Below, one piece after another: positions 1,657 through 17,848 of a stretch of DNA of 26,499 bases. Both the position numbers and the translations under genes were made by a program. The notes beneath the pieces were generated by a model. It had not been told where the DNA came from and made no database searches. It saw nothing but the letters and a program-made list of their open reading frames with translations. The DNA is taken from positions 1 to 26,499 of IMG/VR virus record IMGVR_UViG_3300027522_000028; one strand, given 5' to 3'. Within the stretch, counting starts at the first letter, position 1. Each line of letters begins with the position of its first letter. The stretch is from a virus.

Positions 1657-2166
1657 ATGGGAGTTCCAAAAAGATTAACTGAGATGCAGAAAAGGTTTGC
1701 AGAGTTCATAGTATTTGGTGGGCCTGATGGCCCGGTCTCTCAATCAGAAGCAGCTGAACTAGCTGGATATAGCAAAAATAGATGTAGACAAGAAGGATCA
1801 GAATTATTGAATCCTAGACTATCACCGTTGGTAGTACAATATGTAGGTGGACTCAAAGAAGAACGAATGAAGAAATTTGAAGTGACTTATGAAAACCACA
1901 TATCAGAATTAGATAGAATTAAAAAGTTGGCTTTGAAGAAAGGAAGTTTTTCAAGTGCTGTAAATGCTGAAACGAACCGAGGCAAAGCAGCAGGGTTATA
2001 TATAGACAGAAAAATAATAAAACATGGAAAACTAGAAGAATTATCAGAGGACCAGTTAGAAGCCAAAATGAAACAAATACTAGAAGATTACGCACCTCTT
2101 TTAAATGCTGACGTTGTGGAAGGTCAAGTGGAAGAGATAACTGATGAGCCATCTAGTGAAGTTTAG
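1657..2166 (+). CDS. terS: Terminase small subunit
   Basis: This 169-residue protein has the N-terminal helix-turn-helix pattern of small terminases. RLTEMQKRFAEF (residues 6-17) is followed by SEAAELAGYSKNRCRQEGSEL near 30-50 and by LLNPRLSPLVV, which fits the Terminase_2 family (LT.kQ..F ... AA..AGYs ... g..LL.np.v). The C-terminal half is predicted helical and ends in an acidic tail. The family recognises packaging sites and stimulates the large terminase, which is not in this window. It is alone on the + strand between minus-strand genes. It lacks a Shine-Dalgarno sequence and starts 6 bp after a -10 box, so it is probably translated from a leaderless message. Its last 14 bases overlap the convergent gene at 2153-2473. 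The iteron region 330 bp downstream is a candidate binding site. Confidence 0.8.
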   Translation: MGVPKRLTEMQKRFAEFIVFGGPDGPVSQSEAAELAGYSKNRCRQEGSELLNPRLSPLVVQYVGGLKEERMKKFEVTYENHISELDRIKKLALKKGSFSSAVNAETNRGKAAGLYIDRKIIKHGKLEELSEDQLEAKMKQILEDYAPLLNADVVEGQVEEITDEPSSEV

Positions 2167-2473
2167 TCATTTTTAATACACAAGAAGTAGGGAACACAGA
2201 TCTTTCAGAGAAAGTAATAGTTCCATCATCATCAATATCATAACCTGCAAATATTTTAACAGTGTCTTTGTCTTTACTAAAAAGATAGCCTTCACTTACA
2301 GGTGTTGCCAGCTTCATGTTGTTAAATTCTTTTTCGCTACCCCAACCTCCTTCCGTAACAATATCACACCAATCTATTTTATATCTACTATATGGAAACT
2401 TAACTTGTTGTTTTACAAGTTTAGGTTTAGCATAGGTGTTTAACTGTCTAGATTTCTTTTTAGGTTTGGTCAT
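2153..2473 (-). CDS. Hypothetical phage protein with acidic EF-hand-like stretch
   Basis: This 106-residue protein has a basic N-terminus (MTKPKKKSRQ...), a central Trp/Tyr-rich section and an acidic DIDDDGTITF stretch near residues 80-89 that resembles a single EF-hand loop. I do not assign a function and a real Ca2+ site is only a possibility. No Shine-Dalgarno sequence precedes the ATG; a TATATA sequence lies at 2481-2486, eight bases upstream, with one copy of the 11-bp iteron (2494-2503) just behind it. The gene converges on terS with a 14-bp overlap. Confidence 0.6.
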   Translation of the reverse strand: MTKPKKKSRQLNTYAKPKLVKQQVKFPYSRYKIDWCDIVTEGGWGSEKEFNNMKLATPVSEGYLFSKDKDTVKIFAGYDIDDDGTITFSERSVFPTSCVLKMTKLH

Positions 2474-2564
2474 GGGTTCTGTATATATTAATCTTGCGAC
2501 ACCTAACAGTGGTATTTATTTTTATTTTTTTTAAATGGCGCTAAAAAATGACAGGGTGTCGAAA

Positions 2565-2586
2565 TTAGTAAACAAATGATTACTAT
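2565..2586. repeat. Palindromic site AGTAA-n8-TTACT, copy 1
   Basis: Follows the iteron at 2554 directly. The 16 bases GTGTCGAAATTAGTAA at 2556-2571 recur at 2685-2700, and both are followed by a short core and TTACTATC. In this copy the core contains CAAATG. Confidence 0.6.
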
Positions 2587-2693
2587 CACTCTATAAATCC
2601 CGTCATTACTCATTAATTTTCTTAAAATCTTCCAAAAAGGGGGTGTCGAAAGGGTGTCGAAAGGGTGTCGCAAGGGTGTCGCAAGTGTCGAAA

Positions 2694-2715
2694 TTAGTAA
2701 CCATTTGTTTACTAT
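2694..2715. repeat. Palindromic site AGTAA-n8-TTACT, copy 2 with inverted core
   Basis: Same flanks as the copy at 2565-2586, but the core reads CATTTG, the reverse complement of CAAATG. It sits at the right end of the direct iteron array. A dyad of this kind suggests a dimeric DNA-binding protein. Confidence 0.6.
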
Positions 2716-2859
2716 CTTGTACATATGTGTCGCAGTTTTGTGATAATTATTTAGAATTGTTCTAATGTACATATTTTTCGACACCCTTTCGACACCTTTT
2801 CGACACCCTTTTACGCCATTTCGACACCCTTGCGACACCCTAATTTTTACTTTCTTGCC

Positions 2860-3597
2860 TTAATCTTGCCTTGTTTTAAACTCATTTGCCTTAATTGTAA
2901 CGTTTGCTTTTTCTTTCTCGTCAAATTTTAATTCATTGTACATATCTAATCTTTTTAAAAAAGCATGTTTCCATTTTCTTAATTGTAATCCCTCAACCTT
3001 AAACTCTTGATAGTATAGGTCCGGTGTACAAACCATAATGACACCTTGTTTGATGTGGCTACCATAGACATAGTCGTGGGCCATGGCGTATGCTGCAATT
3101 TGCATGTAATAATCTTCAATCCATTCTTCCCTCTTTGGACGGTTAGATTGCTTGAAGTCGACAACAGTTTCCATGCCATTGTGATTACAGATAAGGTCCG
3201 TGGCCCCTGCGTACAGGCCCGGATAGTGCAACATAACTTCACTACCGTAATATTCATCCACTGGTGCAAGACCCATCTCTATAATTTTATCAGCCATGGG
3301 CCGTGCTTCTTGACCTATGGGTGTTAAATCAATGATATTAGTTCCAAGAACATAGTGCTCTAGATACTTGTGCATGCAAGTCCCTCGACTTGACGCGTGG
3401 TCCTTGATCCGTGTTGCTTCCACCTCGCCTACTTTAGCCTTCCACTTTTTTATAAAATCTTGGTTCTTTGTAGCACCTAGTACAGTAGTCACTGAAGGTA
3501 ATTTATATTGACCAATCTCATACATCCGGGTCCCTGATCCGGGGTCCGTGAGTTGTTTGCCTTGTATGTAGGTATAACGTTTACTGTGTTTGATCAT
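2860..3597 (-). CDS. PD-(D/E)XK exonuclease (RecB/Cas4-like)
   Basis: This 245-residue nuclease has the order of motifs seen in phage RecB-like exonucleases and the MGME1 group: LPSVTTVL near residues 33-40, SRGTCMHKYLE near 70-80 (His76), LYAGATDLI near 128-136 (Asp134), VVDFKQS near 145-151 (Asp147, Lys149) and QIAAYA near 166-171. These build a two-metal active site for DNA degradation, so it likely supplies resection for recombination or degrades host DNA. It ends next to the iteron region and overlaps the endonuclease VII gene by 17 bp, indicating one operon. The residues TDPGSG (17-22) are encoded by a GC-rich sequence that recurs almost unchanged in the 360-aa virion gene. Confidence 0.8.
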   Translation of the reverse strand: MIKHSKRYTYIQGKQLTDPGSGTRMYEIGQYKLPSVTTVLGATKNQDFIKKWKAKVGEVEATRIKDHASSRGTCMHKYLEHYVLGTNIIDLTPIGQEARPMADKIIEMGLAPVDEYYGSEVMLHYPGLYAGATDLICNHNGMETVVDFKQSNRPKREEWIEDYYMQIAAYAMAHDYVYGSHIKQGVIMVCTPDLYYQEFKVEGLQLRKWKHAFLKRLDMYNELKFDEKEKANVTIKANEFKTRQD

Positions 3598-4069
3598 CTG
3601 ATTCTCTTTCTGTTATATTATTTAATTCTTCTATAATTTTTTTCGGATCTTTTTCCAAGTACAATGCACCTATAAGCAATCCTCTTAAATTATCGTTAAA
3701 GAGCCCTAGGCCCGTGTTACAGCCCTTACAAGTCCATCCTCTAAAGATAAGTGTTCCATGAATATGATCACGTTCTAGTTTATCAGTAGTCTTAAAACAA
3801 CACTCACAAAAAAAAGGTTTAGGACCCGCAATTTTTTCTATTTGTTTGTGTTCTTTAACAAGTATGTTAGTGCATATTTTACAAACGCTTTGTAAATAAT
3901 AAGCATTTATAGCATTTTGAGTACCTTTCTTTGAAAAAAACTCAGGTAATAACTTTTGTTTACAACTTGTACATTGTTTTAAATCGTCTTCTTTACCTAC
4001 AATTTTAACATTGTCTCGGTAGTGAAAGGGTTTCAGTTCTCCGTTAAGGTGTGTTTGTCTTAATGACAT
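3581..4069 (-). CDS. Recombination endonuclease VII (Holliday junction resolvase)
   Basis: This 162-residue protein fits endonuclease VII (T4 gp49-like, HNH/ββα-metal fold). The diagnostic stretch is LERDHIHGTLIFRGWTCKGC (residues 98-117), with catalytic DH at 101-102 and zinc ligands CxxC at 114-117 and CECC at 88-91, followed by CNTGLGLFND. A second zinc-finger-like pair, CTSC (33-36) and CKIC (63-66), precedes it. The family cuts four-way junctions and other branched DNA, resolving concatemers before packaging. The start is well set: AGGAGA lies 5 bp before the ATG. Upstream is an unusual 155-bp structured leader (4091-4175). Downstream it overlaps the exonuclease gene. Confidence 0.85.
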   Translation of the reverse strand: MSLRQTHLNGELKPFHYRDNVKIVGKEDDLKQCTSCKQKLLPEFFSKKGTQNAINAYYLQSVCKICTNILVKEHKQIEKIAGPKPFFCECCFKTTDKLERDHIHGTLIFRGWTCKGCNTGLGLFNDNLRGLLIGALYLEKDPKKIIEELNNITERESDDQTQ

Positions 4070-4669: not shown

Positions 4670-5050
4670 TTATTTTTCTTTTCCAAACCATATGTTATCT
4701 CTAAATCTATCAAGTTCAATTACATTGTCATCTAAATCTTGTATATGAGGATCATAGTGATCAATAATTTGTTCTATTTTATGTAATTTAATAACTACAT
4801 GAGGCCATAATGTTTTAGCCACAAACAAACAATCTTGATTACGACATCTCCAACGCCATTGGTTTTTAATTTTACGTAACTCACCGCACTCTAAAGTTTC
4901 ATGAATTAATTCCATAACATTTCTATCTGCCATAGATATTTCCATTCTCCAAACTTTACCTACAATTACGGACTTGCTAGTTTTAATAGTGCCTTTAGCA
5001 TCAAATATTCCTGCAATGTAAGTTATATCTAATTTAGTATTACTGTTCAT
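4670..5050 (-). CDS. LAGLIDADG-like protein, catalytic Asp replaced by Lys
   Basis: This 126-residue protein starts with TYIAGIFDAKGTI (residues 10-22), a recognisable single LAGLIDADG helix, followed by the β-strand patterns expected of the fold (WRMEISMADRNVMELIHETL, then GELRKIKNQWRWRCRN). In homing endonucleases of this family the penultimate residue of the motif is the metal-binding Asp/Glu (LAGLIDADG); here it is Lys19. The protein can probably still fold and bind DNA but should not cut. It is free-standing rather than inside an intron or intein as far as the sequence shows. AAAGGAAAAA precedes the ATG. Confidence 0.65.
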   Translation of the reverse strand: MNSNTKLDITYIAGIFDAKGTIKTSKSVIVGKVWRMEISMADRNVMELIHETLECGELRKIKNQWRWRCRNQDCLFVAKTLWPHVVIKLHKIEQIIDHYDPHIQDLDDNVIELDRFRDNIWFGKEK

Positions 5051-8886: not shown

Positions 8887-10851
8887 TTACTTTATTGAAC
8901 CCCAATTTTTACCATGTTTGTAATTAACTTTATTGTTAACCTCTAAAGTAATAGCGTTTTCCATAGTTTCTTTTACAATTGTAGCTTGTTCCTCATTTTT
9001 TATAGATAAACAAAGCTCATCATGTATCTGTATCTGTGGTAAAATCCCTTGTTCATATAGATTTACCATAGCTTTTTTAGTCATGTCGGCTGCGGAACCT
9101 TGAATTAATCTATTTAAAGCTTTGTAAGTAAATGCAGGCTTATAGAAATCTGTAAAATGTTCATAAGTAGGATCAGCTACATAACCTTTGTTTAATCTAT
9201 CATCTGTATAATATTTTTGTGCTACTTCTTTATCTAAAATATCTACTGAGTCATACCTATTAATACTATTGTTCCATTTCCTATCTCTAGTTTCCCATTT
9301 ATTAAACCTACAGAACCTATCTTCCAAAGTATATAAAAGTTTATTTTCTTCAGCAAAATTTATTAAATCTATAGATAATTGTTTTACAAAAGGAACTTTA
9401 GCATGGTAATCAGCAAACAATTTATTTGCTTTAGGTCTATCTAAACCAAGTTCACTAGCTAATTTTATTTTACCCATACCATAAAAAAGTCCTAAGTTAA
9501 TTGTCTTGGCCATGGTCCGTGATATGTGAGCCATGTCCGCAACGATCTGGTGAAAATCTGCATCCTCTTTATTAAATTCTTCTAGCAAGGTATCTGTTCC
9601 AGGCATCCCTAAGGCTAAGGCGTAGTGTACCACGATCCGTGGTTCCTGTTGACTGTAATCGAATGATCCCCATTCACAATCATCTTCAGGTAAAAATAGT
9701 TCTCTCATTTTTTTACCAATGAATCCTCTTGAAGGTATCTGTTGTAAGTTAGGATTACTCATTGAAAATCTACCAGTCACCGTTCCACCTTGGTCCGATC
9801 TAATTTGATTAATATCTGCATGTATTCTACCTTCATGTACAAACTCTAACAGTCCTTCGATAAAAGTATTCTGAGTCTTATCAAAGTTTCTTGCTTTAGC
9901 TATTAATCTTAAATATTTATTTTTATGACTTGATAAATAATCTTTAGGGAGTTGAGGTAAGCCTGCTTTAGTTTTTTTATAATCTGTAATCTTTTGATGA
10001 TCTAACAAAGCTTTAATAGAAGATGCTGCCCACATTTCTATTTTTATACCTGTTCGTCTTTCAATGTAATTGATAATATTAGTTTTTGTCTCTCCTAAAC
10101 GTTTACCAAATGCTCTAGCTTTTTCGACATCAATCTTAACGCCTTTAAACTTCATGTCAACTAAACAAGGAAATAATTTAGTTTCTAATTCAAATATTTT
10201 TCTACAAGTTTTTTCTTCTACTCTTCCATCGTCATGAGTTTTAGTGTATAGTACTTCATCCAATTTCTTATCAAATATGTTCCATAACTTTAAAGTTAAG
10301 TTTACATCTTGCTCTGCATAATCTTTTACTAAACTATAAGGTAATTTTTCCATATTAGTCATAGGGTCTTGTATAACTCCATCGGACCATGCCTTAACTT
10401 TATCTGTTAAATCATATTTATATTTAGTTTCATTTAAATAAACTTTACTAATTGCATCTAAAGAATATCTCATTCTTGTTTCATCAATTACAGATGCTGC
10501 AATCATAGTATCTAATAATTCACCTTGAGGCATCTCGCCGGTTGAGGATCTAATCCAACATACATCGTATATTGCATTATGGAATACTTTGCGTATGTCC
10601 TTGTTTTTAAAGAGTTTTTCGTTCAAGTAATCCCATGTTTCTTTAACAGGTAAGTTATCTGTCATGGCATGAGCTAAGGGAAAATAAAAAGTTTGTTTCT
10701 TAGTAGCGATTGCAATACCGGTTACAAAACCATCTTTTCTAACTGCACCTAAACCTTTTGTTTTTAAATTTGGATCAGAAGTTTCTAAATCAATAGCAAC
10801 AATATCTATATCTGTTAAATCTAATTCCGATACTTGTGGAACAGTACACAT
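8887..10851 (-). CDS. polA: DNA polymerase I family (family A) with 3'-5' exonuclease
   Basis: A 654-residue replicative polymerase. The proofreading domain is intact: Exo I IDLETSD (Asp21, Glu23), Exo II HNAIYD (Asn92, Asp96) and Exo III YAEQD (Tyr178, Asp182). Polymerase motif A is FDYSQQEPR (Asp398), motif B is RTMAKTINLGLFYG (Arg445, Lys449, Tyr457) and motif C is IHDE (610-612). There is no 5' nuclease domain, as in T7 DNA polymerase. The residue equivalent to E. coli Phe762 is Leu453. Its start shares a base with the DUF3310 stop (TAATG), and AAAGGG lies upstream. It is the last gene of the replication operon. Confidence 0.92.
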   Translation of the reverse strand: MCTVPQVSELDLTDIDIVAIDLETSDPNLKTKGLGAVRKDGFVTGIAIATKKQTFYFPLAHAMTDNLPVKETWDYLNEKLFKNKDIRKVFHNAIYDVCWIRSSTGEMPQGELLDTMIAASVIDETRMRYSLDAISKVYLNETKYKYDLTDKVKAWSDGVIQDPMTNMEKLPYSLVKDYAEQDVNLTLKLWNIFDKKLDEVLYTKTHDDGRVEEKTCRKIFELETKLFPCLVDMKFKGVKIDVEKARAFGKRLGETKTNIINYIERRTGIKIEMWAASSIKALLDHQKITDYKKTKAGLPQLPKDYLSSHKNKYLRLIAKARNFDKTQNTFIEGLLEFVHEGRIHADINQIRSDQGGTVTGRFSMSNPNLQQIPSRGFIGKKMRELFLPEDDCEWGSFDYSQQEPRIVVHYALALGMPGTDTLLEEFNKEDADFHQIVADMAHISRTMAKTINLGLFYGMGKIKLASELGLDRPKANKLFADYHAKVPFVKQLSIDLINFAEENKLLYTLEDRFCRFNKWETRDRKWNNSINRYDSVDILDKEVAQKYYTDDRLNKGYVADPTYEHFTDFYKPAFTYKALNRLIQGSAADMTKKAMVNLYEQGILPQIQIHDELCLSIKNEEQATIVKETMENAITLEVNNKVNYKHGKNWGSIK

Positions 10852-11057
10852 TATTTATAATCCCTTTCTATTATCATTTCTAAGTAGTGAATTGCTTTTT
10901 CTACATCTTGTAACTTTCCTTTTGCTTTATGTCTACAAATATATTTAATTGCATTTCCTTCTGCAAAAAGTAATTTGTTTTTATTTATAAAGTCTGCTGG
11001 TTGAATCTCCATGTCTTTGTAATGGGATCCCCCTATTTGCTTTTGGTATACAGCCAT
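10851..11057 (-). CDS. DUF3310 protein
   Basis: This 68-residue protein matches DUF3310, a domain also found in phage T7 gp1.7: GGSHYKDMEIQPADFI (residues 9-24), FAEGNAIKYICRHKAKG (31-47) and a final helix KAIHYLEMIIER. Gp1.7 is a nucleotide kinase in T7, but whether this short stand-alone domain is catalytic is unclear. It sits between helicase and polymerase, consistent with a nucleotide or replication role. Its first 77 bases overlap the end of the helicase gene in another frame, which is long for this genome; it ends in a TAATG junction with the polymerase. Confidence 0.75.
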   Translation of the reverse strand: MAVYQKQIGGSHYKDMEIQPADFINKNKLLFAEGNAIKYICRHKAKGKLQDVEKAIHYLEMIIERDYK

Positions 11058-12723
11058 ATTTACCTAGTTCCTTTCCTGTTTCTTCGGTTGCTAATACCCA
11101 GATGTCAAAGATTGCTCTACTAAACATAGTATACTTCAATCTATATTGTACGTTCTCTGGCTCGGGTTTGTGTCGTGTCAATGTTAAATCTCCAATAACA
11201 TTATCATAAGTCATTCCCTTTACTTTATGAATATTTCCAAGTTCAATTCTAATTTTAGAATCATAATCAAATCCGTTTCTTATTACATTTTTAATATATA
11301 TCATTCTATCGTCATGTTGTTTCTCATCTTTGCCTTTACTTCTTTTTCTAATCAAATCAAAACTTGAATGTAAATGTTGTTTATCTTTTAATAAACCTTC
11401 TTTAATTAATTCATCAATAGTATAATCTTTGTTAATTTTAAAATTTCCCTCATCAAATGCAAATGTTCCTTTACCTCTAGGTATAGCTTTACTACCTAAA
11501 TACTTCCAAAATTGTTTTATCTGCAATTTACTTTTAGGAAAGCCTTCATAAAATGATGCCCATTCATTATGACATCTTAATTCTTCTTTAGATACATGAC
11601 CTGAATTTCCTACGTATGCAAATTCAAAACCATTTCGTTTTAAAAAATTTACTATTCTTAAATCAGTAGGTTTACCACGGTAACAGAATAAAAAGTTCTG
11701 ATTAGTATTTTTCATTTTATCTAATAAAATAGATAAACTTTTAGAAGGTCTTAAATCATTGAGAGCATATTTATTTCCTTCAATTAAATCTCCGTGTTTA
11801 CAACCTTCTGGTATTAAATTTCTTTTCCCATGATAGTCATCATCGTATGTTGCTGGATGCCATTTTCTTGTGTACTCGTATTCTATCCATATTGGGGCTA
11901 TAATTTCTTTACAATAATCATTGACGGCTTTACTACATCTTTTACCTTGACCTAATTCTCTGTAGGGTTTAGCTGAAATTAGGTGAAAATAATGTGCGTC
12001 TGAACCTGCAAATTCAAATATAGTTTGATCAGGGTCTCCTACCATATAAAAATGTTCGTCCTTAACATTCTGTGCCATTTTGTTTATAGCTTCTAATTGA
12101 GGTTTATTACAATCTTGAGCTTCATCTACAATTAACATTTCTATGTCAAAAACATTATCTAATGAATTAAATTCATTAAGCATATCTGCAAAGTCATGTT
12201 GACGAGTATCTTTTTTATATTTAGTATAAACTTTGTTTAATTTGTCTAATTGCTTAAACTTATAAGGATTGTATTCACTTTTATCTGCACAAGTATCCCA
12301 ATGATATTCTAATTTGTCAGATAAATTCTTACCATGTGCATGATTTATAAATTTAAAAAAAGGATGTTTACTGTAAGGATCCCCCTTAAATTTTGCTAAT
12401 CTAAAACTCGATTCTTTTGCACATAATTTATTATAATCATCATTTTCTTTGTCATCAAAAACTTCTTTTCTCATAATTTTATTTCTACAAAAATGATGAA
12501 TTGTACATATTCTATCTTCAAAATAATCTTTCTTTAAACCTTGTTCTTTAATTTCTTTCATTTGTAAAATTGCTTTAATAATTTGATTAGCAGCAGTATT
12601 GGTGTGAGATAGTAATATAATTTTATCTGTACCATATTTTAAAAATCCTTCTCTATATTTTTCTACTAAAAATTCATGTGTTTTTCCAGTTCCTGGAGGT
12701 CCCGCTACAAATCTAGGTGTCAT
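10981..12723 (-). CDS. UvrD/Rep-like superfamily 1 DNA helicase
   Basis: A 580-residue helicase from the ATG at 12723 (a TTG at 12738 is an alternative start overlapping the primase gene). Walker A is AGPPGTGKT (7-15), Walker B VDEAQD (199-204), followed by VGDPDQTIFEFAG (228-240), a UvrD-type motif III. Further on are NIHKVKGMTYDNVIGD (motif V) and LKYTMFSRAIFDIWVLAT (motif VI). These show ATP-driven ssDNA translocation, most likely unwinding the fork together with the family A polymerase. The last 25 residues (after EELGKYG) are encoded in an overlap with DUF3310 and look unlike conserved helicase sequence. Confidence 0.88.
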   Translation of the reverse strand: MTPRFVAGPPGTGKTHEFLVEKYREGFLKYGTDKIILLSHTNTAANQIIKAILQMKEIKEQGLKKDYFEDRICTIHHFCRNKIMRKEVFDDKENDDYNKLCAKESSFRLAKFKGDPYSKHPFFKFINHAHGKNLSDKLEYHWDTCADKSEYNPYKFKQLDKLNKVYTKYKKDTRQHDFADMLNEFNSLDNVFDIEMLIVDEAQDCNKPQLEAINKMAQNVKDEHFYMVGDPDQTIFEFAGSDAHYFHLISAKPYRELGQGKRCSKAVNDYCKEIIAPIWIEYEYTRKWHPATYDDDYHGKRNLIPEGCKHGDLIEGNKYALNDLRPSKSLSILLDKMKNTNQNFLFCYRGKPTDLRIVNFLKRNGFEFAYVGNSGHVSKEELRCHNEWASFYEGFPKSKLQIKQFWKYLGSKAIPRGKGTFAFDEGNFKINKDYTIDELIKEGLLKDKQHLHSSFDLIRKRSKGKDEKQHDDRMIYIKNVIRNGFDYDSKIRIELGNIHKVKGMTYDNVIGDLTLTRHKPEPENVQYRLKYTMFSRAIFDIWVLATEETGKELGKYGCIPKANRGIPLQRHGDSTSRLYK

Positions 12724-12727
12724 AATT

Positions 12728-14227
12728 TTATTGTTCAAAATCTATACTCTCTATATTTTCTTTTTTAATTACTTCTTTATATTCCCCATCAATGATTAAG
12801 TCTTCCATATCTATTTCATAGTCATCAATCTTCCAAGACACACAAGATTTATATTGATCATCTTTTATTTTAACTTTACCTCTATTTTTTTTGGCTTTTA
12901 AAATTCTTTGAACCTGCATAACTAAATCTACTCTAGCAATTTTAATTCTTTTATCCGTTAAAAAATCTTCAAATGCATCTAAGTTAAACTCTAAACTTTT
13001 ACTAATCATATCAAAGAAAGGTCTTTTATACTCAAGTAAATTAATCTTTTGATCGTAAGCATTCTCTTGTTTGATATAGTGTTTAAAGTATTTTTTAAAT
13101 ACCAAATCTTTATTAGCTTCCTCAACATAATATTTTGATTTAGTTCTACTTTCAAATTTTTGCAGCATAATTGTTTCAAACTCTACAACTGGCATTTTAG
13201 GAATCCAAACAGAACCTTGTGACATAACTGCGTCATAAAATAATTTTTGGTTCATTAAAGTTGGCCCAGGAATTATAATATTTTTTTCAATAACTTTACC
13301 TTCTAATTTACCTGTTACTTTAATTATGTATCTGTCTTGTCCATACTCTATAATGTCTCCTATGCACTGTTGTGCAATTTCTTTTCTATCAGAAGAACCA
13401 CTATCTTTTGCGCCAACCCAATCAAACAAGTGTGCTATTGCTGGAGGTGTACACCCTATTAGTTCAGATAATTTAGGTATTCCAAATTTTCGTTTTGATT
13501 TTTTACCCGTAGTACCTTTAGATTTTCTTTCTTCACATTCATCATCATTAGAAGCCACTGCAATATTGTAAACAAACTCATCAATATCACTTACACTCCA
13601 TTTAGTATGGCTTAATAATACTCCGGCAATAGCTGTACAATACTCATCCCTTGATCCTTTAGAGGCATACAAAATACAAAGCGCCGTAGACAATGCTATT
13701 TTTCTTAAATCTAAATCTAAGTCTCCAGGGTATTCTTTTATACCTTCATACTTTTCCCATCTTACATGTTCATGTACTTTACTATGTAAAGATCCGGGAA
13801 CAATTGTATAGAAATTACTGCCACTTCTTATCTCACACAGTGTTGCACCATGTGGAAAATTTTTATAATATTTTTCTAATTCTTTTGGTAAAGAAAAAAC
13901 AGTTTTATTTAACTGACCTTTAAACCAATAATGACTTGTTGGATTACTGGGTCTACCAGATATGGCTCCACAATATTTTATATACTTATTTACAAATCTT
14001 TTTGCTATAGAGTTATCTATATCTAAATCAACATCGTGATCTAATCTTAAAGCTATTTCACAACCCTTGTAAGAATTTTTCCATTCTTCTTTTGTTATTG
14101 AAAGGTCTTTACTACTCCACTTACTTATTTCAGGTAAACCTTTTTTACAAGGTATAATAATCCTATCTAGATCTAACCAGTTTTCATATGTGGACGGACC
14201 ACTATTAAGTATTTCTTTATCAATCAT
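12728..14227 (-). CDS. AEP-type primase (PrimPol-like)
   Basis: A 499-residue protein with an archaeo-eukaryotic primase core in its first ~170 residues: DVDLDIDN (65-72) gives the hhhDhD metal site, GRPSNPTSHYWFKG (91-104) gives the SxH nucleotide-binding site, and GATLCEIRSGSNFYTIVPGS carries the third acidic/Gly region. After residue 180 comes a helical section and a C-terminal α/β part with no Walker A, so no fused helicase ATPase is present. It would make primers, and perhaps extend them, for the family A polymerase. The neighbouring UvrD-like helicase overlaps its 3' end. This replaces the TOPRIM primase-helicase used by T7. Confidence 0.75.
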   Translation of the reverse strand: MIDKEILNSGPSTYENWLDLDRIIIPCKKGLPEISKWSSKDLSITKEEWKNSYKGCEIALRLDHDVDLDIDNSIAKRFVNKYIKYCGAISGRPSNPTSHYWFKGQLNKTVFSLPKELEKYYKNFPHGATLCEIRSGSNFYTIVPGSLHSKVHEHVRWEKYEGIKEYPGDLDLDLRKIALSTALCILYASKGSRDEYCTAIAGVLLSHTKWSVSDIDEFVYNIAVASNDDECEERKSKGTTGKKSKRKFGIPKLSELIGCTPPAIAHLFDWVGAKDSGSSDRKEIAQQCIGDIIEYGQDRYIIKVTGKLEGKVIEKNIIIPGPTLMNQKLFYDAVMSQGSVWIPKMPVVEFETIMLQKFESRTKSKYYVEEANKDLVFKKYFKHYIKQENAYDQKINLLEYKRPFFDMISKSLEFNLDAFEDFLTDKRIKIARVDLVMQVQRILKAKKNRGKVKIKDDQYKSCVSWKIDDYEIDMEDLIIDGEYKEVIKKENIESIDFEQ

Positions 14228-14277: not shown

Positions 14278-15042
14278 CTATAAATTGATTGTCTTTTTAG
14301 TTGCTTCTTGAGTTTCAGGTTTTGCTTGTACAGCACCTTTGCTAACTTTTTCAGCAAAGTTTTTTGCACTTTCATAAACCGATTTATCTTCAATAGGTCC
14401 AACTTTAGACACATCCCAACCAAACCATGTTCCTTTGTCATTTGACATCTGAGTGGTTTTTAGTTTGTAAATGTGGCTATATGTTGGCGGCGTAAACATA
14501 CCATTTTTACCTTGAAGTTTAATACCCATCATCATTGAGTTCCATTTTCTACTAATTTTTAATTGAGTAGATTTCATAGAAATCAAAGCTGATTGAGGTG
14601 ATTTACCCAAAACAACTACAAAATGATTTGCAGTGTTCTCTAAGTAGTTACCATTTGGAAGTCTATCTTTATAAGATTTATCCCTTGTTGTAGTACTTAC
14701 GATATCACTTTCCGCATTATGGATTGCGACTGGTGCACCTTTACTGTCACCTCTATCTTGCCATTCTACATATTTTCTTTCGTAGAATACTGGCAACACA
14801 TCGATCCCTTTAGCACCATCAAAAATTTCATTTGTGACAGTGTTTAAGATCATTCCAGGTTCTGCACCTTCGACATACTTACCATCTCTCTTATTAATTT
14901 CAGGAGATAGTTGTCCTAATACTTTCAGAAACGGTAATGCAAGATCATCTTGCATCATATTCTGAGAGCCTTTATCAGCATCAGCTTCAAACATGTTTGT
15001 TGCTAATGCGCCTGCTTCTTCTTTGTTTGCTACTTGGTTCAT
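14278..15042 (-). CDS. Probable ssDNA-binding protein
   Basis: A 254-residue protein with a mostly β-rich central part: ALPFLKVLGQLSPEINKRDG near residues 35-54, EPGMILNTVTNEIFDG near 61-76, VLPVFYERKYVEW near 82-94, HFVVVLGKSPQSALISM near 140-155. The ends are low in complexity and probably disordered. This layout is typical of phage proteins annotated as single-strand DNA-binding, and the gene is immediately upstream of primase, helicase and polymerase. It lacks an obvious acidic C-terminal tail like that of T7 gp2.5, so the call is inference from layout and context. AAGGAAA lies upstream of the ATG. Confidence 0.5.
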   Translation of the reverse strand: MNQVANKEEAGALATNMFEADADKGSQNMMQDDLALPFLKVLGQLSPEINKRDGKYVEGAEPGMILNTVTNEIFDGAKGIDVLPVFYERKYVEWQDRGDSKGAPVAIHNAESDIVSTTTRDKSYKDRLPNGNYLENTANHFVVVLGKSPQSALISMKSTQLKISRKWNSMMMGIKLQGKNGMFTPPTYSHIYKLKTTQMSNDKGTWFGWDVSKVGPIEDKSVYESAKNFAEKVSKGAVQAKPETQEATKKTINL

Positions 15043-15044
15043 GG

Positions 15045-15599
15045 TTATTGTTTCCTTTTTATTGTTGTTTTATTTCCAACGAATACGTTGAAAAGTTCGG
15101 TAGGCAGTTCCTTACCCGCCTCAATACGCTCCCGAACTAGCGCTTTGAGAGTCATGGGCTCAACCTTCAACTTTTGTGTTGGTTGATACCCACGCTCTGA
15201 TGCAAGGCTAGCATAATCCGCAGCCTTGTTATCTTCGTTACGCCCAAATGATACGGATATCTCATTTTTGATTATATCACCTAGGTTATTGTCTCGAAGC
15301 CATTGAAACGCAGCATCTTTATTTGCTATAGTTATGCTTGCGCTATAATTTGGTTTAACATCTACTGAAGAACCATCCATAAGTTTAAGATGAGATAAAC
15401 CCATCTCAGCCATCATAGTTGGAATTACTTCCGCTGATAAATGTTCAAAATCTTTTTTCTTTTGTTTGAGAGCTTCTTCTTGTGTTTCTATTTCTTTTTG
15501 AAATGTATTTAATCGCTCTACTTGGTCAGCTAACGACTGAATGTTTTCAGTCTTACCCAACATTTTTGTTTGGTCGTCTTCAAAGTTAATATTACTCAT
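15045..15599 (-). CDS. Widespread tailed-phage protein of unknown role, coiled coil plus conserved core
   Basis: A 184-residue protein. Residues 20-55 form a coiled coil (SLADQVERLNTFQKEIETQE...). The following part has a recurring phage pattern: VIPTMMAEMGLSHLKLMDGS near 58-77, AFQWLRDNNLGDIIKNEISV near 97-116, FGRNED, and finally LKALVRERIEAGKELPTELF with VFVGN. I recognise this general pattern from many tailed phages but know no proven function. Position next to the ssDNA-binding-like gene suggests a replication or recombination accessory. The ATG lies within the end of the upstream gene (ATGAGTAA) with AGAGGAAAG before it. Confidence 0.6.
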   Translation of the reverse strand: MSNINFEDDQTKMLGKTENIQSLADQVERLNTFQKEIETQEEALKQKKKDFEHLSAEVIPTMMAEMGLSHLKLMDGSSVDVKPNYSASITIANKDAAFQWLRDNNLGDIIKNEISVSFGRNEDNKAADYASLASERGYQPTQKLKVEPMTLKALVRERIEAGKELPTELFNVFVGNKTTIKRKQ

Positions 15600-15948
15600 C
15601 TATCTTTCCTCTTTCATATAAGTTAATCTCAATAGGATAATATTGTCTTTCTTGTTTATCCCATTTTAGTAAATTGTATTTACCATTTGTTGTGTCAGAA
15701 ACTATAGAACACGCTACACCAATAATTGCAGGATCTCCAGTTAATAATAAATAATCTTCTGTTGTAAAATCTTTTAAAGCTTTTCTAAGTTTAAAAATTA
15801 ATGGACCAGGAGAAAATATTATTTGTGAAAGTTCCGGTAATAAAAAAACAAACTCACCATATTTTGATGCGCCCATAATATTTATTTTAGGTCTACCCTC
15901 GGCAGTACCAGCAATCATTTGAATTACGTAAACTTTATTTTCTTTCAT
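15592..15948 (-). CDS. Hypothetical protein, first gene of the replication operon, probably leaderless
   Basis: A 118-residue protein from the ATG at 15948. An upstream in-frame TTG (15957) is rejected because it lies inside the promoter. The sequence is soluble with mixed strands and helices (KVYVIQMIAGTAEGRPKINI, then YGEFVFLLPELSQIIF) and no motif I recognise. The ATG starts 7 bp after a TATATT -10 box, so the message should have almost no leader and no Shine-Dalgarno site. It overlaps the next gene by 8 bp. Confidence 0.55.
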   Translation of the reverse strand: MKENKVYVIQMIAGTAEGRPKINIMGASKYGEFVFLLPELSQIIFSPGPLIFKLRKALKDFTTEDYLLLTGDPAIIGVACSIVSDTTNGKYNLLKWDKQERQYYPIEINLYERGKIDE

Positions 15949-15983
15949 GATTGACAATATAGTTATCCATGATAAATTGTCAA
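15949..15983. promoter_or_regulatory. Second palindromic divergent promoter
   Basis: TTGACAAT at 15951-15958 and ATTGTCAA at 15976-15983 are perfect inverted repeats. Minus strand: TTGACA 15983-15978, 16 bp, TATATT 15961-15956, then GTCAATC and an ATG at 15948. Plus strand: TTGACA 15951-15956, 16 bp, TAAATT 15973-15978, then GTCAAG and a short leader with GAAAGAAG before the ATG at 16002. The architecture copies the promoter at 1621-1656. Confidence 0.75.
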
Positions 15984-17437: not shown

Positions 17438-17468
17438 TATACGCGTGAAGCGCGCTGTAATTTTGTTT
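17438..17468. terminator. Possible terminator between convergent genes
   Basis: The 35-bp gap between the SNF2-like stop and the speD stop holds a small GC-rich dyad (CGCG-TGAAG-CGCG at 17442-17454, overlapping AGCGCGCT) followed on the + strand by TAATTTTGTTTT. The stem is only 4 bp, so the call is weak, but a terminator is expected between convergent genes. Confidence 0.4.
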
Positions 17469-17848
17469 TAGGAAATGTCTTGGAGTCCTGTTTCTCGATT
17501 TAAAAACTTGTATTCTATTTTTGTAATTTCGAAATCTTCTTTAATTTTGTTACATATGTTTTCTACATCTAGTTCCCCACAACTGTAAACATCAAACTGC
17601 ATTAATGCAGGATTAACTTCGTCCCATATGTGCATAGCGATGTGTGAGGTTTCAATGATTGCAACTGCTGTGATTCCACGGTTGCCGGGCATCTCACAAT
17701 ACTTAACATAAGGGCCCATAAATATTTTCATATTAATTGATTTTATAAATTCTTCAAACCATTCTTTTAATTTTTTTTCATCTGTGGGAGCGCGCATTGC
17801 TTCTGCACGAATAATAAGATGTTTATGTACTAATAAATTATTTAACAT
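17468..17848 (-). CDS. speD: S-adenosylmethionine decarboxylase homologue (SpeD)
   Basis: A 126-residue protein of the prokaryotic class 1B length. The self-processing region is ETSHIAMHIWDE (residues 66-77) with Ser68 as the likely pyruvoyl-forming residue, His73 as proton donor, and Cys90 in FDVYSCGEL, matching Ser63, His68 and Cys83 of the Thermotoga enzyme. Its role would be making decarboxylated AdoMet for polyamine synthesis, an auxiliary metabolic gene in infected cells. The residue before the cleavage Ser is Thr rather than the usual Glu, which appears one place earlier, so substrate or cleavage may differ. It overlaps the M15 peptidase gene by 11 bp, within the lysis cluster. Confidence 0.85.
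   Translation of the reverse strand: MLNNLLVHKHLIIRAEAMRAPTDEKKLKEWFEEFIKSINMKIFMGPYVKYCEMPGNRGITAVAIIETSHIAMHIWDEVNPALMQFDVYSCGELDVENICNKIKEDFEITKIEYKFLNRETGLQDIS

Follow-up and report, generated by a model that had tools for sequence, protein, structure and literature searches.

The alpha protein of phage P4 is a primase with a winged-helix origin-binding domain that acts at the origin repeats, and ORF904 of plasmid pRN1, an archaeo-eukaryotic primase, has a winged-helix domain at its C terminus (PMC4234260). In the PLE satellites of Vibrio cholerae, the origin iterons and the DNA-binding domain of RepA covary and are swapped as a module, and an origin-directed phage nuclease has been proposed as the driver of this change (PMC8263062). 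Phages of the HTVC023P type occur widely in the sea according to PMC9599517, which describes about 80 of their genomes; the literature that we searched yielded no description of a pelagiphage origin. Here we analyze facing iteron arrays in one such phage, for which the best-supported reading is that they are a replication origin, whichever protein reads the iterons; from sequence comparisons, we consider this likely.

The locus can be compared with each of these systems. As with P4 alpha, a winged-helix primase would act at origin repeats, a role that we infer for the phage primase; P4 alpha, however, is a single protein in which a bacterial-type (Toprim) primase is fused to a helicase and to the binding domain, whereas primases related to the pelagiphage protein have an archaeo-eukaryotic primase domain and the UvrD-like helicase is separate. 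Covarying iterons and initiator domains are also a property of PLE RepA/ori, but there the reader is of the RepA_N type and the repeats are three semi-palindromic units of ~30 bp, in contrast to the up to 13 short sites at 11-bp steps, in facing rows and in the phage itself, that we describe. ORF904 of pRN1 differs in that it includes a helicase, and the pRN1 origin has no iterons but a stem-loop. Plasmid iteron (theta) origins likewise consist of direct repeats of one site beside AT-rich DNA, whereas the repeats analyzed here are only 11 bp apart and face each other around a dyad, their word changes fast, and the candidate initiator gene is ~10 kb away.

The window (the whole stretch of DNA analyzed, a 26,499-bp linear IMG/VR virus record) is, judging by its genes, part of the genome of an HTVC023P-type pelagiphage, a marine virus that infects SAR11-type bacteria. 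For the exonuclease and the SF2 helicase encoded there, the best matches are in the Pelagibacter phages HTVC027P, 023Pt_psg01, and HTVC023P, and the gene order of HTVC027P (replication genes, exonuclease, TerS, and helicase, all homologous) is the same in the window. The genes that bear on the arrays are these:

1657 to 2166, plus strand: terminase small subunit gene (terS), Terminase_2-like, convergent with the 106-aa gene
2153 to 2473, minus strand: conserved 106-aa gene, across the array from the exonuclease; PHROG 25889, function unknown
2860 to 3597, minus strand: exonuclease gene flanking the array
8887 to 10851, minus strand: DNA polymerase A (PolA)
10981 to 12738, minus strand: UvrD-like SF1 helicase, candidate partner of the primase, with which it diverges together
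12728 to 14227, minus strand: primase-position protein of 499 aa, type A, candidate iteron reader; C-terminal domain at about residues 283 to 467

The last of these adjoins three genes (14278-15957, minus strand) that match the Pam3 phage gp34-, gp33-, and gp32-like Pfam families. An S-adenosylmethionine decarboxylase-like gene (PHROG 3125; 17468-17848, minus strand) may be an auxiliary metabolic gene. Near the candidate origin lie an endonuclease VII gene (3581-4069, minus strand) and, as recognized by eye, a LAGLIDADG homing endonuclease-like ORF (4670-5050, minus strand). An Rfam search of the window returned zero matches.

The initial annotation had described about twelve copies of an 11-bp word, several of them abutted at 11 bp, in two opposed arrays around a TTAGAA-TTG-TTCTAA dyad, and had proposed either a replication origin or a packaging site. 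The description of the arrays was borne out, and the elements of the region are as follows:

2497 to 2838, no strand assigned: entire candidate origin, facing arrays with 13 GTGTCG iterons
2495 to 2504, minus strand: outlying lone reverse iteron TTGCGACACC, retained in most large-array relatives
2520 to 2549, no strand assigned: AT-rich stretch with GGCGCTAAAAAA, counterpart of an AGCGC element conserved in relatives
2554 to 2564, plus strand: outlying lone forward iteron GGGTGTCGAAA
2566 to 2585, no strand assigned: accessory dyad TAGTAA-N8-TTACTA, 20 bp
2641 to 2693, plus strand: forward array, four GGGTGTCGMAA at exact 11-bp steps plus AAGTGTCGAAA (steps of 11, 11, 11, and 9 bp)
2695 to 2714, no strand assigned: second 20-bp copy of the accessory dyad TAGTAA-N8-TTACTA
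2725 to 2735, plus strand: lone iteron ATGTGTCGCAG between the arrays
2751 to 2765, no strand assigned: central dyad TTAGAA-TTG-TTCTAA, TTAGAATTGTTCTAA, between the forward and reverse arrays
2776 to 2840, minus strand: reverse array, five copies (steps of 11, 11, 21, and 11 bp)

The exact word GGGTGTCGMAA occurs nine times in the window, always at 2554-2840 (5 forward and 4 reverse). Its GTGTCG core occurs 16 times, and 13 of these copies fall within 2497-2838 (full sites 2495-2840, ~350 bases), with forward copies at 2556, 2643, 2654, 2665, 2676, 2685, and 2727 and reverse copies at 2497, 2779, 2790, 2801, 2822, and 2833. Around the central dyad, five copies in forward orientation face five in reverse, with steps that are mostly 11 bp; no other TAGAANNNTTCTA occurs in the window. 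The two TAGTAA-N8-TTACTA dyads and the outlying single copies at 2497 and 2556 add to the earlier description. In 200 random sequences generated from the dinucleotide frequencies of the window, GTGTCG averaged 2.4 copies in total and never exceeded two within 450 bp; for any 6-mer with at least two G or C residues, the maximum reached in 100 random sequences was 7, compared to the 13 copies per 350 bp observed. One short site in register, confined to one region of the replicon, is the mark of iterons, and 13 of the 16 copies are arranged in this way.

The centre had also been called AT-rich. An enrichment is present, but it is only modest, since A+T content is 74% at the array centre (2696-2775) and 71% in the left part, against 66% for the whole window. 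Across the array, a single ORF is listed (2503-2838, 111 aa); it had no PHROG match and was rejected as a gene. A GC/AT skew check, suggested at the same time, gave no support for an origin at this place: the cumulative skew of four long relatives follows the direction of the genes, with no switch at the array. Repeat arrays serve partition, recombination, and superinfection-exclusion roles in other elements, and a site of this kind would be unrelated to replication start; however, neither partition genes nor an integrase was found among the window genes searched, and such a role appears very improbable.

Absence of the arrays from close relatives had been named as the observation that would count against the proposal; they are present. 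For the exonuclease and for the 106-aa gene, ~80 viral loci each were found, with the order exonuclease, gap, 106-aa gene, and convergent terS, and most of these gaps contain an array, the word of which varies by lineage. A de novo motif scored above 8 shuffles each in 44 of 54 non-redundant region clusters, and in the other 10 the arrays were not significant; this control is coarse, and the weaker array calls are therefore suggestive only. The lineage words include GTGTCGAA, GTGTCGCG, GTATCGCA, GGGTCGCA, GTGGCACA, GTTACAATG, and others, with the orientation order and the dyad largely retained while the change of word extends over the copies of an array; GTGTCGCG is the word of G005-type arrays and GTTACAATG that of HTVC027P-type arrays. 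In HTVC027P itself, the corresponding interval is at about 14.74-14.95 kb. The large-array class has the order 5F-4R-F-R-F, or one close to it, with the first, second, third, or fourth of these words, and of 35 GTGTCG-array regions, 26 contain the perfect dyad, which nearly always separates the F array from the R array. Each of the 48- and 64-kb relatives has it only once, in that same position, and every exact GTGTCGCG copy in them is within the array region (11 of 11 in the 63.6-kb relative, G010). By eye, a loose pattern, ~GTGTYRCA, fits many words (GTGTCGCA, GTGTTACA, and GTGTCACA), and GTGGCACA is one base off.

Some relatives differ in detail. The two rows of a large array can differ in the tail variants of the word, as in the array regions of L051 and L055; the forward row of L051 has GTGTCGCAA and its reverse row GTGTCGGCA, which gives the impression of rows evolving semi-independently. 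Four relatives with the type-B primase (L072, L046, G045 [L410], and G051 [L411]) contain a TTTAGAAC-N2-TTCTAAA-like dyad within the beginning of a small gene located upstream of the array, not between arrays. In some relatives, the gap between exonuclease and 106-aa gene itself contains inserted ORFs.

When viral contigs were scanned for GTGTCG triplets with an 11-bp period, at least 112 loci were detected. Genes of the HTVC023P-type phage group are carried by 65 of those listed, and, among the matches listed, every facing-array locus belongs to this group. Some SAR11 chromosomes also contain three GTGTCG at exact 11-bp steps, identical in word and period to the phage iterons, shortly downstream of tRNA-Thr(TGT) (L604:2375-2402, L625:1051-1078, L633:5664-5691, L645:7760-7787, and L670:4050-4077, the first five loci, in which the tRNA context was read; also L722-L724); of 397 family genomes, 4 contain the exact pattern. 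The tRNA copy beside the repeat in L633 and L645 is a 3' fragment only, resembling an integrated-element junction.

Two types of protein occupy the primase position. An AEP-TOTE domain is detected in type-B proteins, which match a PHROG primase family. The type-A protein of the window has no significant family match, Pfam included, but we call it a primase because of its position, its AEP-like motifs (invariant D67, D69, and D71 together with S98-H99), and the C-terminal domain that it shares with type B. In a comparison of the two profiles, only this C-terminal part aligned (residues 283-460 of type A with 324-502 of type B; 97.3%), with the qualification that the twelve rows of the type-B profile include G008, itself part type A in the C-terminal part. 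AlphaFold models (pLDDT 83), built from alignment rows consisting of the window and fetched contigs only, place an HHEEHHEE succession at 373-467, a winged-helix-like layout. A PDB sequence search with the primase alignment gave zero matches up to an E value of 1. With Foldseek, the full model matched an AEP-type primase-polymerase best, at a level that is not usable (E value of 0.003, probability of 0.54, and TM of 0.16), and the C-terminal model alone had none below an E value of 0.13, hence no significant match to a solved structure. No helicase family was matched by the primase protein, and the UvrD-like helicase is a separate gene; primase, helicase, and winged-helix binding domain are thus not combined in one polypeptide as in P4 alpha.

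We compared the divergence of these genes with that of the word. Relative to the window, G002 and G003 share 56% identity in the primase and 43% in the helicase, compared to 71% in PolA and 78 to 95% in genes on the other side. G001, whose upstream genes are 81 to 94% identical to those of the window, has no detectable homologue of the window primase; it has a type-B primase and lacks a GTGTCG array. Between G003 and G005, the primases are 80% identical, with identity falling to its lowest over the final 100 residues, and the other replication genes, the exonuclease, and TerS are 88 to 97% identical. Judged by such identities, the primase and the SF1 helicase are the fastest-diverging, swapped replication genes. 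A broader proposal, that variability across type A is highest in the winged-helix part, was not borne out and held only in close pairs.

Type-A primase was present in 10 of 10 GTGTCG-array contigs and in 2 of 18 contigs with other words (Fisher, 5e-6), a count that excludes the chimeric G008 and includes many close relatives; with one contig per lineage in our own grouping, the proportions were 5/5 and 2/10 (p = 0.007). When contigs were chosen by the GTGTCG triplet alone, all three that reach the primase gene had type A and none had the other type. G008 has GTGTCG words and a primase with a type-B front and a C-terminal part nearest to type A (26%, E value of 3e-11). The correspondence is not exact. 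G029 combines AGTTCC words with a type-A primase, and L484 combines GGGGTCGCA words with a type-B primase; a strict rule equating type A with GTGTCG was rejected, with G029 and G034 as exceptions. A 97.7%-identical block shared by G003 and G004 covers the array, and their primases are clearly different, with ~62 to 75% identity over the last 100 residues; the words of G003, G004, and G005 share GGTGTCGC, and tolerance is therefore possible.

In partial Mantel tests of word similarity with the exonuclease controlled, performed on a small and related set of 17 contigs, the values were 0.51 for the primase, 0.47 for the helicase, and 0.33 for PolA, compared to 0.06 for TerS, -0.01 for the 106-aa protein (orf106), and 0.03 for ORF219; without near-duplicates, the primase value drops to 0.33. 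The exonuclease itself correlates with the word as strongly as the primase does, which is expected from its adjacency to the array, although this does not prove adjacency to be the explanation. Across these comparisons, the word appears to track the primase/SF1-helicase pair and not TerS.

The last point bears on the packaging half of the initial proposal, in which TerS would bind the array as a pac/cosB-like site where packaging starts. In headful phages, the pac site is often found within terS or close to it, and the distance, given earlier as 330 bp, is indeed 328 bp (terS ends at 2166), a closeness that is kept in relatives; the conserved 106-aa gene (2153-2473), however, intervenes. TerS is rejected as the reader because identical DNA-binding regions pair with different words and because of the near-zero partial correlation. 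The same N-terminal 65 residues of TerS are found with GTGTCGGC, with GTGTCGAC/AA, and with non-GTGTCG regions (L094, L096, L072, and L131), as well as with GTGTCGCA in one phage versus GTGTCGCG in another (L110 and L032). A packaging role is therefore not supported by these sequences, and we regard it as unlikely.

The array could instead serve as an operator at which a transcription regulator acts on the 106-aa gene, on the exonuclease, or on a regional switch, since it is intergenic, has inverted repeats and other dyads, and in some relatives is accompanied by a TGTGA-N6-TCACA palindrome. Thirteen sites would then serve a single small downstream gene, and that gene, as noted, does not covary with the word. 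Promoter-like matches in the array region number 1, against a shuffle mean of 3.4, and among the genes compared, none was identified as a repressor gene with variability to match. An operator is thus improbable.

The facing arrays, unique in the window, the conserved position and orientation order, and the words that track primase and helicase all support the origin half of the proposal. An origin read by the SF1 helicase, an uncharacterized phage protein, or a host factor is rather doubtful, though the covariation of the helicase comes near that of the primase and the GTGTCG triple in SAR11 chromosomes could suggest a host reader. The contribution of the helicase is small once the primase is controlled (0.12, p = 0.08), compared to 0.19 (p = 0.013) for the primase with the helicase controlled; UvrD-like helicases are not known to act as site-specific readers, and a single host factor is argued against by the different words among phages of related hosts.

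We therefore favor, with some reserve, the joint reading of an iteron-type replication origin with the primase as its putative reader. The covariation suggests that the iterons are probably bound by the C-terminal winged-helix-like domain of the primase. This domain would bind along one helix face, and the two facing rows of protein would melt the AT-rich centre, and the helicase would be loaded; the N-terminal part of the primase would then synthesize the first primers, and the phage PolA would extend them. If word and reader change together, origin specificity would become lineage specific. A more far-reaching possibility, which we put forward tentatively and hold to be less probable, is that widespread marine phages possess a hypervariable origin of up to 13 iterons, with position and orientation fixed and the words rewritten together with a free-standing primase C-terminal domain.

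Were this so, the primase itself would be the origin-recognition protein, and its specificity would be diversifying under conflict with satellites, origin-targeting nucleases, or co-infecting phages. If our reading is right, a cultured relative such as HTVC027P would allow a direct test of the origin, and the words would allow initiator specificity to be read from metagenomes. These phages would then provide a natural series of matched words and readers, in which the evolution of DNA-binding specificity could be followed while an essential origin remained unbroken.
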